This document shows positions 22,016 through 28,668 of a DNA stretch of 64,000 bases, one piece after another. Numbering within the stretch: the stretch's first letter is position 1; each line of letters starts with the position of its first letter. The DNA is from Bordetella genomosp. 13. Lineage in GTDB: Bacteria; Pseudomonadota; Gammaproteobacteria; Burkholderiales; Burkholderiaceae_B. Location of the stretch: contig NZ_CP021111.1 in NCBI RefSeq assembly GCF_002119665.1, positions 3,596,001-3,660,000 on the forward strand. The letters are read 5' to 3'. The notes beneath the pieces were generated by a model, which was not told the origin of the DNA, did no database searches, and was given only the letters and a program-made list of their open reading frames with translations. The position numbers were made by a program, and so were the translations under genes.

Positions 22016-24400
22016 ATGTCCGAAACTTCCTCCATCACGAACCCCGCGGCCGGGGTCGACCCTGCCCGCATCGTCGCCCAACTGGCCACCGAGCTGCAGG
22101 TGCGCGCCACGCAAGTCGCCGCGGCGGTCGAACTGCTGGATGGCGGCGCCACCGTGCCCTTCATCGCCCGCTATCGCAAGGAAGCGACCGGCGGCCTGGA
22201 CGACACCGTGCTGCGCGACCTCGAAGTGCGCCTGGGCTATCTGCGCGAACTCGAAACGCGCCGCGGCGCCATTCTCGAATCCATCGCCCAGCAGGGCAAG
22301 CTCACGCCCGACCTGCAGCGCGACATCGCCGCCGCCGACACGAAGCAGCGCCTGGAAGACCTGTACGCCCCCTACAAGCCCAAGCGCCGCACGCGCGCCC
22401 AGATCGCCCGCGAGGCCGGCCTCGAACCCCTGGCGGACGCCATCCTGGGCGATCCCGCCTGCGACCCTGCCGTACTGGCCGCGCAGTATCTGAATCCCGA
22501 GGCCTCCATCAACGACGCCAAGGCGGCGCTGGACGGCGCGCGCGACATCCTGGCCGAACGCTATGCCGAGAATGCCGACCTGCTGGCCGACATGCGCGAG
22601 CACCTGTGGGCCACGGGCGTGCTGTATTCCAAGGTGGCCGACGGCAAGGAAGCCGAGGGCGCCAACTTCCGCGACTGGTTCGATTTCAACGAACCGCTGC
22701 GCACCCTGCCCTCGCACCGCGTCCTGGCGCTGATGCGCGGCCGCCAGCAGGGCGTGCTGGAACTGCGCGTCGGACTCGAGGCCGAACAAGAGGCGCTGAC
22801 GCCCCACCCCTGCGTGGCGCGCGTCGCGAACTTCCTCAAGCTGGGAACGGGACTGTTCGCCTTGGACGCCCCGCCCCGCGCCCGCTGGCTGGGCGAAGTG
22901 TGCCGCTGGACCTGGCGCGTGAAGCTGCTGACCGCATTCGAAAGCGAGCTGTTCGGCCGGCTGCGCGACAGCGCCGAGGCCGAGGCCATCCGCGTGTTCG
23001 CGGCCAACCTGAAAGACCTGCTGCTGGCCGCGCCTGCCGGCCCCAAGGCCGTGCTGGGCCTGGACCCCGGCATCCGCACCGGCTGCAAGATCGCGGTGAT
23101 CGACCGCACCGGCAAGGTCGTGGACACGGCCACCGTCTACCCCTTCGAGCCGCGCCGCGACCGCGAAGGCACCATCGCCACCCTGGCCGCGCTGGCCGCG
23201 CGCCACAAGGTCGAGCTCATCGCCATCGGCAACGGCACGGCCTCGCGCGAAAGCGAGAAGCTGGTGGCCGACATGATGGCGCGCTTCCCCGATCTTGCGC
23301 TCACCCGCGTGGTGGTGTCCGAGGCCGGCGCCTCGGTGTACTCGGCTTCCGAAACCGCGGCGCTCGAGTTTCCCGACCTGGACGTCACGCTGCGCGGCGC
23401 GGTATCCATCGCCCGCCGGCTGCAGGATCCGCTGGCCGAGCTGGTGAAGATCGATCCCAAGGCCATCGGCGTGGGGCAGTACCAGCATGACGTCAACCAG
23501 CGCGAGCTGGCCCGTTCGCTGGACGCCGTGGTCGAAGACTGCGTGAACGCCGTGGGCGTGGACGTGAACACGGCCTCTGCCGCCCTGCTGGCGCGAGTTT
23601 CGGGCCTGAACACGCTGCTGGCCAAGAACATCGTGGCCTGGCGCGACGCCAACGGCGCGTTCCCCACGCGCGACAAGCTGCGAGACGTGCCGCGCTTCGG
23701 CGACAAGGCCTTCGAGCAGGCGGCCGGCTTCCTGCGCATTCCCAATGGCGACAATCCGCTGGATGCGTCGGCGGTGCACCCGGAGGCCTATCCGGTGGTG
23801 CAGCGCATCGTGGCGCGCATCAAGGCCGACGTGAAGCAGATCATCGGCCAGCGCGAGGCCCTGAAGGGCGTGTCGCCGGCGGACTTCACCGACGAGCGCT
23901 TCGGCCTGCCGACAGTGCGCGACATCTTCGCCGAACTGGAAAAGCCCGGCCGCGATCCGCGCCCGGAGTTCAAGACGGCGCAGTTCAAGGAAGGCGTCGA
24001 AACGCTGAACGACCTGTACCCCGGCATGGTGCTCGAGGGCGTGGTCACCAACGTGGCCAACTTCGGCGCGTTCGTCGACATCGGCGTGCACCAGGACGGG
24101 CTGGTGCACATCTCCGCGCTGGCGGAGAAGTTCGTGAAGGATCCACGCGACGTGGTGCGCGTGGGCCAGACCGTGAACGTCAAGGTGCTGGAGGTCGACG
24201 TCGCGCGCAAGCGCGTGGCGCTGACCATGCGGCTGAACGACGCCGCCGAGCCGGCCCGCCGGGGCGGCAACGGCCCTGGCGCGGCGCCGCGCGGCGCCGG
24301 CGGCGAGCGCGGCGGCAGGCGGTCCGGGCAGGACGCCGGGCGGTCGGCAGCGCCCGCGAACAACGCCATGGCCGAGGCCTTCGCCAAACTCAAGCGCTGA
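22016..24400 (+). CDS. tex: Tex family RNA-binding transcription accessory protein
   Basis: 794 residues with the full Tex architecture: N-terminal helical domain (ATVPFIARYRKEATGGLDD), YqgF/RNase-H-like domain (VLGLDPGIRTGCKIAVID, about 345), helix-hairpin-helix motifs (SGLNTLLAKNIV), and a C-terminal S1 domain (YPGMVLEGVVTNVANFGAFV, about 670-740). An arginine/glycine/alanine-rich tail follows. Tex binds nucleic acid and influences expression of toxin and stress genes; it was first described in Bordetella pertussis as a toxin expression factor. Single gene, divergent from the yoaA-like helicase. Confidence 0.96.
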   Translation: MSETSSITNPAAGVDPARIVAQLATELQVRATQVAAAVELLDGGATVPFIARYRKEATGGLDDTVLRDLEVRLGYLRELETRRGAILESIAQQGKLTPDLQRDIAAADTKQRLEDLYAPYKPKRRTRAQIAREAGLEPLADAILGDPACDPAVLAAQYLNPEASINDAKAALDGARDILAERYAENADLLADMREHLWATGVLYSKVADGKEAEGANFRDWFDFNEPLRTLPSHRVLALMRGRQQGVLELRVGLEAEQEALTPHPCVARVANFLKLGTGLFALDAPPRARWLGEVCRWTWRVKLLTAFESELFGRLRDSAEAEAIRVFAANLKDLLLAAPAGPKAVLGLDPGIRTGCKIAVIDRTGKVVDTATVYPFEPRRDREGTIATLAALAARHKVELIAIGNGTASRESEKLVADMMARFPDLALTRVVVSEAGASVYSASETAALEFPDLDVTLRGAVSIARRLQDPLAELVKIDPKAIGVGQYQHDVNQRELARSLDAVVEDCVNAVGVDVNTASAALLARVSGLNTLLAKNIVAWRDANGAFPTRDKLRDVPRFGDKAFEQAAGFLRIPNGDNPLDASAVHPEAYPVVQRIVARIKADVKQIIGQREALKGVSPADFTDERFGLPTVRDIFAELEKPGRDPRPEFKTAQFKEGVETLNDLYPGMVLEGVVTNVANFGAFVDIGVHQDGLVHISALAEKFVKDPRDVVRVGQTVNVKVLEVDVARKRVALTMRLNDAAEPARRGGNGPGAAPRGAGGERGGRRSGQDAGRSAAPANNAMAEAFAKLKR

Positions 24401-24462: not shown

Positions 24463-26424
24463 TCAGACGGTCGCGCCCGGCCCGCGCATCAAGCGCACGC
24501 CCAACTGCTCCAGTACCCGGCGCGTGGCCGCGTCCGGCACGTCCTCGGCGCACACGTCGATGTCGCGCTGGCTGGCCAGGTCGATCACCGTGGACACCAG
24601 CGCCTGACTGCCGGGACTGGCCGCCAGGCCGCCCACGAAGCTTCCGCCCAGCTTCACATAGGCCAGCGGCAGGCCGTGCAGGCGCGTCAGTGCGTTGAAC
24701 TGCTGCGCCAGGCGGCGCAGTCCCACCCGCGTGCCCATGCGAGCCGCCAGCCGGCACAGGTCCTCGATGCTGGCGTATTGTTCGACCAGGCCATGGGCAT
24801 CGACTTCCACATACAGGCGGCGTGCCAGCGCCGGCGACTCGACCAGCAGGCGCTGCAACTGCACCAGGAAGCCGGACTGCCTGAGCGACGGCAGCGACAG
24901 GCGCACCGACAGCTCGCCGCGGTGCTGCGCCAGCCACTCCAGGCCCAGGCGCACGGCCTGCAGGTCGCAGTCGGCCGACAGGTCCAGCCGCACGGCCACG
25001 GGAATGAACATGCTGGCCGGCATGGGCTCGGCCTCGCCGCTGGCCTGCAGCGTAAGCTGCGCCTCGTGACGCACGACGTGTCCGTCCAGGTCGACGACGG
25101 GCTCGACCGCCAGCGCGTACAGGCTCAGCCGCAGGCCATTCTGGATCACTTCCTTCCAGGCCGATTCGCCCATGGTCAGCGCCGGCGGAACCTCCTCGGG
25201 AGCCAGCTGCAAGCGGTCGTCGCCCGCGTTCTCGGCCTGCATCAGCGCATGATCCAGCCGCGCCAGCACTTCGCCGACCCGCGCGCCATGCGTGTAGTTG
25301 GTCAGCGCCAGCGCCCAGCGGCACAGTTCGCCCTCGCCCACCGGAATCCGCAGGTGCCGCAATTCGGCGCGCAGACGCTCGGCCAGCAGCGTGGCCACCG
25401 GCGTGGTGGAATGCGGGAACAGCAGCGCGAAATCCGATCCGTTCAACCGGCCCAGCACCGCACCGGGATGACGTCGCGCCGCCACCGCGGCATGGATGCG
25501 GTCATAGACCATGCGCAGCCACTGGTCCACCAGCGCACGGTGCATGTGCCGGTTGATGCCGGCCAGGTCGCGCTGCCGGAACACCAGCACGTGCCCCATG
25601 GGATAGCGCCGATGCGCGGCGGCCTCTTCGCCGGACTCGGCCAGCGCGCACTCGAGCTCGTGCAGGAAGGCCTTGCGGCTGGCCGCTCCGGTGACGAGGT
25701 CGCGGTCGAGTTCTGCCTGCATGGACTCGGTGCGTGCCGCCTGCGACTCGGCCTGGGCGCGCAGCTGCTCGCGCGCCTGGTTCACGGCCTGGGCCAGGCC
25801 GGCCAGCTCCGACACGCGGGGCGCCGCGGGCGGGCCCTCCCAGATTCCCTGCCCCAGCGCGCGCACCTCGTCGCCGAGTTCGGGCAGCACGCGAAGGCGC
25901 AGCCACCGCACCAGGAACCAGGCCGAGAGCGCCCACAGCAGGCCGGCCGCCAGCACCAGCGCCGTCATGCGCACGCAGCTGCGCCACAGCGACTCCCACG
26001 CATAAGTATCGTCGGCCACGACGGTCACCGTACCCATCTGCCGCCAGCCGTCGCTGACGGCCTGTGTGGCCGACCGGGCGCGCAGCGGCACCACGTCGCG
26101 GAACCAGGCTGGCACGGCCGGGTGCGCCTGGCCGGCGCGACGCTGCACCACGGGGTTGCCCTGCGCGTCCTGGAAGCTGACTTCCCTGAAGTTTCCGCCG
26201 TCGAACAGCGCGGTGACCAGCAGCGCGCGCACCGCCGGGTCGGCGCTGCCCGGTTGCGACAGCGACAGCGCCAGCGCGACGGCCGCGTCGCGGCTCTGCA
26301 TCTGCAACTGCCCCGAAAGATATTCGCGTGCCGCCGACACGCTGAGCGCCAATACTCCGGCCAGGATGACCGCGACGGCCCCGGAGACGCTCAGCAACAA
26401 CCGTCGCAGGATCGACTTCGACAC
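24463..26424 (-). CDS. lapD: LapD-like cyclic-di-GMP receptor with degenerate GGDEF and EAL domains
   Basis: 653 residues: membrane helix (about 11-32), periplasmic LapD/MoxY domain including the SDGWRQMG tryptophan motif (about 124-131), second helix (about 150-172), HAMP-like linker, GGDEF domain reduced to NGSDF (328-332), and EAL domain reduced to EAQ (454-456) with the metal-binding DDFG replaced by RRLA. Both catalytic domains should be inactive, as in LapD, where the EAL domain senses cyclic-di-GMP and the periplasmic output sequesters protease LapG. The start is a GTG with TAGGAA upstream, 17 bases after lapG; the longer upstream frame runs through lapG and is rejected. Confidence 0.88.
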   Translation of the reverse strand: MSKSILRRLLLSVSGAVAVILAGVLALSVSAAREYLSGQLQMQSRDAAVALALSLSQPGSADPAVRALLVTALFDGGNFREVSFQDAQGNPVVQRRAGQAHPAVPAWFRDVVPLRARSATQAVSDGWRQMGTVTVVADDTYAWESLWRSCVRMTALVLAAGLLWALSAWFLVRWLRLRVLPELGDEVRALGQGIWEGPPAAPRVSELAGLAQAVNQAREQLRAQAESQAARTESMQAELDRDLVTGAASRKAFLHELECALAESGEEAAAHRRYPMGHVLVFRQRDLAGINRHMHRALVDQWLRMVYDRIHAAVAARRHPGAVLGRLNGSDFALLFPHSTTPVATLLAERLRAELRHLRIPVGEGELCRWALALTNYTHGARVGEVLARLDHALMQAENAGDDRLQLAPEEVPPALTMGESAWKEVIQNGLRLSLYALAVEPVVDLDGHVVRHEAQLTLQASGEAEPMPASMFIPVAVRLDLSADCDLQAVRLGLEWLAQHRGELSVRLSLPSLRQSGFLVQLQRLLVESPALARRLYVEVDAHGLVEQYASIEDLCRLAARMGTRVGLRRLAQQFNALTRLHGLPLAYVKLGGSFVGGLAASPGSQALVSTVIDLASQRDIDVCAEDVPDAATRRVLEQLGVRLMRGPGATV

Positions 26425-26441: not shown

Positions 26442-27107
26442 TCAGGGTTCCAGGCCTTCCTGCCGCATGCGCAGCAGCAGTTCCCGCCACCGGCCCGCGC
26501 GATCGACAGGCGCGGCGCCGCGCTCGTCCAGGTACAGGCCGCCCGTGCTGAAGCTGAATACCGGCGTGAGGTCGGCGCGTTGCACGGCGGGAAGCACCGT
26601 ATCGGCGAGGTTGTCCAGCACCAGCGGCATCGCGCCGGGCGTCGGATAGTAGCCCAGCACGATGTGCGGAATGGGTTCGGCGGCATCTGGCCGCTGCGCC
26701 TGCACGTAGATGAAGCGCAGGCGGTCGATCGGCACGCCCAGCATGGCGAGCGAAAAGTACTTTCCGATGGCGTAGTCGGCGTAGGCGCCGCGCCCGCGGG
26801 ACAGGATCTCCAGCGGCGTGGCCCAGTTCATTGCCCGCCGCGCGGCGGGCGGATCGTCGGGCAGCACGCTGCGGTTCCAGAAGTCGTTGACGCGGTCCAG
26901 CTTGTCGCGCTCGGGCAGCGCGGCGTCGTTGCGCAGCTGCAGCAGCCAGGCGGACACCGCCTGCACGGCCTGGGGGCCGTAGGCGGCTTCGGCGGTCTTG
27001 CGCAGCCGTTCGGGATTCAGTTCCAGGGCGCGAGCATGACCGCTGCAGGCCAGACACAGCAATATGGTCCAGACAGCCCGCATGGCGGGGCGCAGGGATA
27101 TGGACAT
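26442..27107 (-). CDS. lapG: LapG-family periplasmic protease homologue lacking the catalytic cysteine
   Basis: 221 residues with a signal peptide (core VWTILLCLACSGHARA, about 12-27) and the bacterial transglutaminase-like cysteine protease (DUF920/LapG) fold. WATPLEILSRGRG, YAIGKYFSLAMLGVP, the catalytic-type histidine in PHIVLGYYP and the aspartate in PLVLDNL are all present. The nucleophile motif normally GDCEDYA reads GAYADYA: cysteine is tyrosine, and the flanking Asp and Glu, which bind calcium in LapG, are both alanine. It is co-transcribed with lapD. LapG normally cuts LapA-type adhesins from the cell surface; this copy should not. No LapA-like adhesin gene is in the window. Confidence 0.88.
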   Translation of the reverse strand: MSISLRPAMRAVWTILLCLACSGHARALELNPERLRKTAEAAYGPQAVQAVSAWLLQLRNDAALPERDKLDRVNDFWNRSVLPDDPPAARRAMNWATPLEILSRGRGAYADYAIGKYFSLAMLGVPIDRLRFIYVQAQRPDAAEPIPHIVLGYYPTPGAMPLVLDNLADTVLPAVQRADLTPVFSFSTGGLYLDERGAAPVDRAGRWRELLLRMRQEGLEP

Positions 27108-27318: not shown

Positions 27319-28668
27319 CTATTGCTGCGCCAGCTCCGCCAGGGCCTCGCGCGCGCGGGCCAGCATGCCGGCCACGTCGGCCGCGTCGGCGCCCGCGGGG
27401 CTGCCCGCCACCACGGCGCCGTCCAGATGAGCCGCGTAGCCCTGGTCGGCCTCTTGCAGCAGGCCGTCGGCGGGCAGGCGCTTCATCGCGGCCCCGGCCT
27501 GCTTGGGATCGGCATAGGCCTGCGAGGTCAACAGCTCCTCGCCGTCGGCCGCCAGCAGGCGGAAGCGGAAGCTGCCGTCCGCGTCGCGGAAGCTGACGAA
27601 GCGCGCGCCCTTGCCGGCCTTGCGGGCCGGCTGGGCCGTCTTGGCGGCCGGCTGCGAGCCGCCCAGGTTGCGCAGGCCCACCGCTTCGCGCAGCACCAGC
27701 AGTGCGGGCGCCGCCATGGCGCGGGCCTTCTGTGCGCCGGCCTGCAGGATTTCCTCGATGCGCTCGGGGCGCGCCATCAGCGCGTCGTAGCGTTCGCGCA
27801 TCGGCGCCAGGATGCCTTCGAGACGGTCGTACAGCGCCGTCTTGGCATCGCCCCAGCCCATGCCGCCCTCGAGTTCTGCCCGAAAGCGCGCGCTTTCCGC
27901 GGGCGTGGCGAAGGCGCGATACAGCGTGTACAGGTGCGAGCCCTCGGCGTCCTTCGGCTCGCCGGGCTGGCGCGAATCGGTCACGATGCGCATCACCGCC
28001 GAGCGCAGCGCCGACGCGCCGCCCTCGAACAGCGGGATCGTGTTGTTGTAGCTCTTGGACATCTTGCGGCCGTCCAGGCCGGGCAGCGTGGCCACCTCTT
28101 CCTCGATGACCACCTCGGGCAGCACGAAGAAGTCGCTGCCATACAGATGGTTGAAACGCTGAGCGATGTCGCGCGCCATTTCCAGGTGCTGGATCTGGTC
28201 GCGGCCGACCGGCACCTTGTGGGCATTGAACAGCACGATGTCGGCGGCCATCAGGATGGGATACGAGAACAGGCCCATGGTGACGCCGTCGTCCGGATCC
28301 ACGCCCTTGGCGGCGTTCTGGTCCACCGACGCCTTGTAGGCGTGCGCGCGGTTCATCAGCCCCTTGGGCGTGACGCAGGTAAGCAGCCAGCACAGCTCGG
28401 TGATCTCGGGAATGTCGGACTGGCGATAGAACGTGACTCGCTCGGGGTCCAGGCCCGAGGCTAGCCACGTCGCGGCCAGTTCGAGCCGCGAGCGCGCCAC
28501 GCGGGCAGGATCGTCGCACTTGATCAGCGCGTGGTAGTCGGCCAGGAAGAAGAACGCGTCCACGCCCGCCTGGGTGCTGGCCTGGATGGCCGGCCGGATG
28601 GCTCCGGCGTAGTTGCCCAGATGGGGAGTGCCGGTGGTGGTGATGCCGGTAAGGACGCGGGTGTTCAT
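27319..28668 (-). CDS. trpS: tryptophan-tRNA ligase with C-terminal DUF1508-like extension
   Basis: 449 residues. Class I synthetase signatures are TPHLGNYAG (HIGH-equivalent, about 14-22) and KMSKS (about 203). It charges tRNA-Trp. The core ends near residue 335; a basic Ala/Lys linker is followed by a small domain (about 352-397) with [20 protein letters not shown], resembling the YegP/DUF1508 repeat, and then an alanine-rich acidic tail. Ordinary TrpS proteins are about 330-400 residues, so the extra domain is a fusion. Start is the ATG giving [13 protein letters not shown]. Single gene with a hairpin terminator after it. Confidence 0.95.

Follow-up and report, generated by a model that had tools for sequence, protein, structure and literature searches.

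The 64,000-nucleotide stretch of DNA analysed here (the window) encodes a LapG homologue, referred to as pLapG, which lacks the catalytic cysteine and the acidic residues on either side of it and which is very probably catalytically dead and yet maintained for some function. That it is a pseudoprotease still serving a purpose had been proposed in the initial annotation, and the proposal is supported by six dead sequences, purifying selection in the four tested, lapD linkage in the four loci read and the inactivity of DvhG mutants (PMC13090378). The LapG-LapD system serves as a model for c-di-GMP action across the inner membrane; the pairs in the cited work all act through adhesin cutting. A conserved dead LapG with its own receptor, kept where the adhesin cluster is gone, points to outputs of the Lap system besides cleavage. 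The titles and abstract beginnings listed from the open-licence literature yielded no report of inactive LapG paralogues.

The LapG homologue of the window

pLapG is a protein of 221 residues encoded on the minus strand (26442..27107) by an open reading frame with an ATG start and zero internal stops. In alignments to the solved LapG structures of Pseudomonas fluorescens (4u65_E, E 2.3e-36) and L. pneumophila (4fgo, E 7.7e-27), the motif GDCEDYA/GDCEDFA is replaced by GAYADYA (26769..26789, minus strand; codons GGC GCC TAC GCC GAC TAC GCC), corresponding to Asp134Ala, Cys135Tyr and Glu136Ala in P. fluorescens numbering. The triad histidine (His148 of pLapG, 26664..26666) and aspartate (Asp165, 26613..26615), both on the minus strand, are retained in the alignment. 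Both the altered motif and the remaining His and Asp had been read in this way in the initial annotation. Of the Cys-His-Asp triad that defines a LapG protease it is therefore the nucleophile that is missing, being Tyr here and Tyr, Ser or His across the clade described below. The calcium-binding acids adjoining the nucleophile are also gone, with alanine at D134 and E136, which are taken, in part from the DvhG mutants, to be calcium-site acids. A further conserved acid near the active site, Asp119, is replaced by Met; D119 is a putative calcium ligand, judged by its conservation.

The only two cysteines of pLapG, C18 and C21, both lie in an N-terminal region that resembles a signal peptide (judged by eye), which leaves the mature protein free of cysteine. 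The AlphaFold model (pLDDT 87.7, pTM 0.82) has the LapG fold, its six top PDB matches all being LapG chains (TM by target 0.85–0.87). Family profiles score below their cut-offs, with 17 bits against 27 for Pfam Peptidase_C93 and 160.9 against 320 for the NCBIfam LapG model NF045674; the latter cut-off is useless for discriminating dead from intact proteins, since the cysteine-bearing Bordetella LapGs P0030 (220.6) and P0108 (197.8) fall below it too.

A clade of LapG homologues without the catalytic cysteine

Among the 120 relatives of pLapG listed as the best of 1977, which include the window's own cluster (P0003), GA[Y/S/H]ADYA is found in five (P0003–P0007) and DCED[F/Y] is kept in the other 115. 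Besides P0003, the five comprise P0004 (84% identity), P0005 from Bordetella genomosp. 13 (77%), P0006 from B. ansorpii (73%) and P0007 (72%), and the copy from genome G002 is a sixth dead LapG. In a tree of 122 rows these six sequences, all from Bordetella-like bacteria, form one clade (support 100/100) with a long stem (0.68) followed by shorter branches. The nearest sequences are P0008 and P0009, both with DCED (support 100/96), whereas the intact LapGs of genomes G001 and G003 are placed elsewhere, which rules out that pLapG was recently copied from an intact lapG of the strain.

D134A and E136A are identical in all six, and all six have open frames, with Y, S, Y, Y, H and Y at the nucleophile position. 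The question whether GAYADYA is conserved in homologues thus has a divided answer: Ala-x-Ala is present in 6/6 members and the middle residue varies between Y, S and H. The outcome named in the initial annotation as refuting, with intact cysteines in close strains and a broken frame in this copy, is not what is found, as six open frames share the loss. Sequencing error, already considered unlikely, is ruled out together with random drift, because the changes occur in six sequences and the altered columns cluster around the active site. A relocated cysteine is ruled out as well, the mature protein of every dead LapG being free of cysteine. A lipoprotein reading of the pLapG N-terminus (by eye) is not favoured because P0004 has no cysteine.

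Residues lost and retained

The 115 cysteine-bearing LapGs from the best 120 listed define 68 reference columns conserved in at least 95% of them, 52 of which are unchanged in all six dead LapGs. Nine of the 16 changed columns fall within the stretch from 111 to 140 in P. fluorescens numbering, around the calcium loop and the nucleophile; D111, W115, D119, Y120, D134, C135, E136, A169 and N209 are among those changed. D119 is lost in all six, and D111, which has been named as bringing in a second calcium (PMC4359373), is aligned to a gap in four of the six and kept in the window and P0004. The triad His and Asp are present in 6/6 dead and 115/115 cysteine-bearing LapGs.

Sites spanning the LapD interface of LapG include A169, Y176, V205 and Y206 (PMC4359373). 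Among these putative LapD-facing positions the dead LapGs have V205 and F206 in 6/6 and Y176 in 5/6, and Ala169, which sits beside the triad histidine, is Pro in all six, so docking on LapD could be altered.

The paired receptor

Directly after pLapG lies pLapD (24463..26424, minus strand; 653 residues), whose GTG start at 26424 is 17 bp downstream; the intact reading frame and lapD linkage that had been claimed are confirmed, the linkage in all four loci read. By Pfam and alignment pLapD has the LapD architecture, a LapD_MoxY_N periplasmic domain with degenerate GGDEF and EAL domains, all over the Pfam cut-offs. On the NCBIfam LapD model NF045673 it scores 318.5 bits against a cut-off of 1020, the intact-cluster Bordetella LapDs being outside this scoring. 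Its GWRQ (26038..26049, minus strand) aligns with the GWxQ loop of P. fluorescens LapD, to which LapG docks, and the G, W and Q are present in 10/10 LapDs compared. W125, D72 and Y76 of LapD are located at the LapG docking site (PMC4359373); pLapD retains D72, G124, W125 and Q127, with Phe for Tyr at position 76, as in two of the four intact-cluster LapDs.

The cytoplasmic module of pLapD has long stretches in common with intact-cluster LapDs. Arg450 of the P. fluorescens LapD EAL domain, at the centre of the c-di-GMP site (PMC3032553), aligns with Leu in four pLapDs and in four intact-cluster Bordetella LapDs, and the LapD of Bordetella bronchiseptica belongs to a working system (PMC4933386; review PMC12805831). 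c-di-GMP binding by pLapD is thus only predicted, given Leu at the Arg450 equivalent, although the intact-cluster proteins share it. pLapD shares only about 50% identity with intact LapD, so the dead pair looks dedicated. Close to where the second membrane helix begins, 4/4 pLapDs have a cysteine (LWxSC) and 4/4 intact-cluster LapDs a serine.

The trpS–tex slot

The pair is located between trpS upstream (27319..28668, minus strand; NCBIfam tryptophan--tRNA ligase) and a tex-like gene downstream (22016..24400, plus strand; named by eye, NCBIfam recognising only an S1 RNA-binding stretch), and these neighbours mark a conserved slot. The order trpS-pLapG-pLapD-tex is found in 4/4 loci read (the window, G001, G002 and G003), so that in each of them trpS and the tex-like gene, not adhesin or type 1 secretion genes, adjoin the pair. 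The nine genomes were hand-picked from the 15 of the genus search, and six of their number are pair-less relatives (G004, G005, G008, G010, G012 and G015). In four of these six (G005, G008, G010 and G012) the slot is empty, with trpS directly beside tex; in G004 a tex-dinG block is inverted and trpS adjoins the dinG-like gene (tex and dinG named by eye). The G015 slot (L096:4839-8656) is filled with other genes, including aceE (TIGR00759) and a MarR-like regulator (by eye), and therefore takes insertions in other lineages too.

The intact Lap system and its absence from one genome

Any LapG is found in five of the 15 genus-search genomes, with two copies each in G001 and G003 and one each in G002, G010 and G012, and LapD copy number tracks the LapG count. 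LapA-type retention modules are present in four of the five LapG-bearing genomes (G001, G003, G010 and G012). Besides the dead pair, G001 and G003 hold a separate, intact brtA-lapG-lapD cluster, which in G003 consists of a TolC-like gene, a type 1 secretion ATPase (TIGR03375), a membrane-fusion protein, another gene, a giant adhesin, lapG and lapD (genes called with a simple GC-frame script; names other than TIGR03375 given by eye). The giant adhesin of G003 falls in two called open reading frames, which may be real or an assembly fault. Retention-module matches at L069, L070, L071 and L072 lie in open frames of 8755, 4217, 11163 and 13071 residues, these very large adhesins varying in length between relatives.

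G002 has one LapG and one LapD, which are the dead pair, intact. Searches that were positive in G001 and G003 found no second LapG, no second LapD and no LapA retention module in G002, although a very divergent adhesin would escape them. The alignment of the two genomes jumps in G003 from 669563 to 703145 with only 55 bases between in G002 (474272 to 474328), so that G002 is without exactly the 33.6-kb lapE-B-C-brtA-lapG-lapD block of G003; identity flanking the gap is 93-94%, and the absence lies inside one G002 contig and is therefore not a contig-end artefact. The top LapB matches are at 100% in G003, 94% in G001 and at best 31% in G002, these being the only rows used from an unspecific search with about 150 matches per genome. 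Retention of the dead pair therefore needs no BrtA, intact LapG or second LapD.

Selection on the dead pair

Pairwise dN/dS (NG86, which ignores transition bias) is 0.137–0.259 for dead LapG (window, G001, G002 and G003) compared with 0.129–0.260 for intact LapG (G001, G003, G010 and G012), with six pairs in each set; four of the six dead LapGs are covered, P0004 and P0007 being available as protein sequences only. The corresponding values are 0.150–0.294 for pLapD and 0.186–0.334 for intact-cluster LapD. Since the split of G002 and G003, nonsynonymous changes account for 4 of 14 changes in pLapG on the G002 branch (P 0.0011) and 5 of 16 on the G003 branch (P 0.0011), and for 16 of 66 (P 5.8e-15) and 27 of 72 (P 4.5e-9), respectively, in pLapD. 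All four counts are below the neutral nonsynonymous share of about 0.71, which weights transitions twofold and leaves codon bias outside the model, 2 and 4 ambiguous sites having been dropped. The cluster loss in G002 may be recent, in which case part of the observed constraint on the dead pair may predate it.

Comparison with known LapG and LapD systems

The pair resembles LapG-LapD of P. fluorescens (BTLCP / Peptidase_C93; NF045674 and NF045673) in its fold (4u65_E, TM 0.86 by target), the adjacency of lapG and lapD, the triad His and Asp and the GWxQ loop of LapD. It differs in that pLapG is without the catalytic Cys, D119, D134 and E136 and has A169P, and in being located beside trpS and a tex-like gene rather than adhesin and transporter genes. 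The LapD-LapG-BrtA system of B. bronchiseptica belongs to the same genus or close kin, and the residues of its LapG for protease activity, LapD binding and calcium are reported to be conserved (PMC4933386). In G001 and G003, as in that species, the intact lapG has a giant adhesin and lapD for neighbours, whereas the window pair maps to trpS-tex instead of brtA and includes a dead LapG.

DvhG, the LapG homologue of the DvhG/DvhD pair of Desulfovibrio vulgaris, needs the triad and calcium acids for cutting, which is abolished by D316A/E318A or C317A (PMC13090378). DvhG itself is active and has a transmembrane segment; its changes are laboratory mutants, in contrast to the comparable changes of the window, which are natural and conserved. 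HvyA of Caulobacter is likewise a periplasmic regulator of the BTLCP family, but it needs Cys-His-Asp (D241N is tolerated, C192S/A are non-functional) and governs the capsule (PMC4241560).

Recurrence of cysteine loss in LapG

Matches to P0001 occur in 80 of the 250 genomes sampled from the family and reach 74% identity or above only in G001–G003, the next being at 55%; active sites were read in nine further matches and in the intact copies of G001, G003, G010 and G012. A scan of 68 loci gave 70 LapG matches, 67 with the cysteine and three without, one from the Bordetella clade (L001) and two being second copies in Nitrosomonadales MAGs (L015:7112-7780, plus strand, GATAEDYA; L044:5724-6608, plus strand, GASSEDYA). 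Both second copies directly follow a glucose-6-phosphate isomerase gene (identified by NCBIfam in L015 and by likeness in L044), each is followed by its own lapD, and an intact lapG is adjoining (L015) or one gene further (L044).

A search with the L015 copy gave 6402 matches; among the best 120, 34 lack the cysteine, counting the query cluster P0123 and a fragment (P0234), and the other 86 keep Cys, D134, E136, His and Asp; coming from the top of a query-biased list, the proportion is not a prevalence. A tree of 86 rows was built from 33 cysteine-less matches (without P0234), the six Bordetella-type sequences and 47 sampled intact ones, with the five active-site columns removed. Each dead class forms a clade, and three origins are most parsimonious, two of them forced by strongly supported branches. 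Cysteine-less LapG homologues thus appear to have arisen separately in Nitrosomonadales and relatives and in the Bordetella clade. Among 399 genomes of the order searched with the His-type dead LapG P0174, 85 gave a match, and no cysteine-less LapG is found among the 30 best new loci, all of which have DCED, 29 of them with an adjoining LapD sequence.

Two genomes that carry the Nitrosomonadales dead pair (G640 and G656) also have lone LapG-like genes upstream of surE (L180:6481-7230, minus strand; L181:5749-6456, plus strand), with GSHADHA/GSHTDHA and the triad His lost as well (SYMVL); no lapD is present within the 11-13 kb read around them.

Models for the function of pLapG

The reading we lean towards is that pLapG, without cutting, serves its own LapD receptor as a periplasmic partner, independently of adhesin cleavage. 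This rests on the loss of the nucleophile and calcium-site acids with retention of the fold, the conservation of pairing and slot, purifying selection and the survival of the pair in G002. It also rests on the LapD docking residues kept on both sides (the exceptions being A169P in LapG and, in LapD, Phe in place of Y76) and on the dead LapGs that adjoin their own LapD in L015 and L044. As the dead LapG and its receptor are kept even where the adhesin is gone, pLapG probably signals by binding, not cutting. pLapG would be exported to the periplasm and would dock on pLapD via the GWxQ loop once the cytoplasmic GGDEF-EAL module takes up c-di-GMP. The output may be binding itself, with pLapG holding a periplasmic client, and without its calcium site pLapG should be calcium-insensitive. 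Signalling might also run in the other direction, pLapG being a periplasmic input that completes pLapD activation, in the manner of LapG with LapD of P. fluorescens. There LapG binding is a second, activating input, one called likely vestigial; together with c-di-GMP it drives LapD into a dimer-of-dimers, and external proteins have been proposed as regulators of such receptors (PMC5231407).

In the initial annotation pLapG was instead thought to act on adhesin release, either by competing with intact LapG for LapD or by holding the adhesin uncut; shielding of the BrtA cleavage site would have this effect. The genomes G001 and G003, where the dead pair coexists with an intact brtA-lapG-lapD cluster, are consistent with such a decoy or brake, as are the dead pairs near an intact lapG in L015 and L044, and the GWxQ loop of both kinds of LapD makes cross-binding possible. 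Such a role, however, needs an intact LapG, its LapD or the adhesin, and G002 keeps the dead pair where none of these is found, so that it is unsupported as a general role and cannot be the whole story; the low identity of pLapD to intact LapD also speaks for a dedicated pair. We regard this account as unlikely. A purely chaperone-like role, in which pLapG ensures the folding or proper oligomeric state of pLapD and there is no client, would suit the pairing in all four loci read and the promotion of LapD dimer-of-dimers by LapG (PMC5231407). We consider it rather improbable, as the further cysteine-less LapG-like protein of G640 and G656 has no LapD in the stretch read, an objection limited by the fact that this protein resembles another class most closely and is without the His too.

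It is very unlikely that the pair is merely what is left of a lapG-lapD duplication, now functionless and in decay. The loss of catalytic and calcium-site residues and the drift of the nucleophile position (Y, S, H) would be expected of decay, but all six frames are open, dN/dS is as low as in intact LapG, the nonsynonymous share is low on both youngest branches, Ala-x-Ala is identical in six sequences and the slot is kept. Least probable of all is a changed chemistry, with pLapG remaining enzymatically active through a different nucleophile or a metal. The triad His and Asp of all six members and the Ser or His at the nucleophile position of two of them would allow it, but that position is unconserved (Y, S, Y, Y, H, Y) in proteins whose mature form has no cysteine to offer, and closely matching substitutions inactivate DvhG (PMC13090378), as C192S/A do HvyA (PMC4241560).

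More tentatively, and a little short of what we would call probable, the non-cutting partner could belong to a recurrent non-proteolytic branch of the Lap system. After duplication, lapG-lapD pairs would time and again lose catalytic activity and turn into independent binding switches of the periplasm, in the Bordetella clade released from dependence on any adhesin. The dead LapG would then be a binding protein under regulation or would supply a c-di-GMP receptor with periplasmic input. In these natural pairs LapG binding is separated from proteolysis and, it seems, from calcium control, so that the role of the LapG-binding input (PMC5231407) becomes testable. A match to lapG-lapD alone is insufficient to call a genome adhesin-releasing.

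Other LapG-like sequences

Four sequences (P0141, P0142, P0143 and P0145) have Ala for Cys (GGDAEDYA) and keep D111, D134, E136 and D137, with Lys at D119, which suggests a different route to inactivity. At L184:2035-2544 a LapG-like sequence with RGDSVDLA (Cys to Ser, Glu to Val) lies beside a lapD sequence; its best match among the proteins compared is P0113 (45%), and it is perhaps another separate case of cysteine loss.
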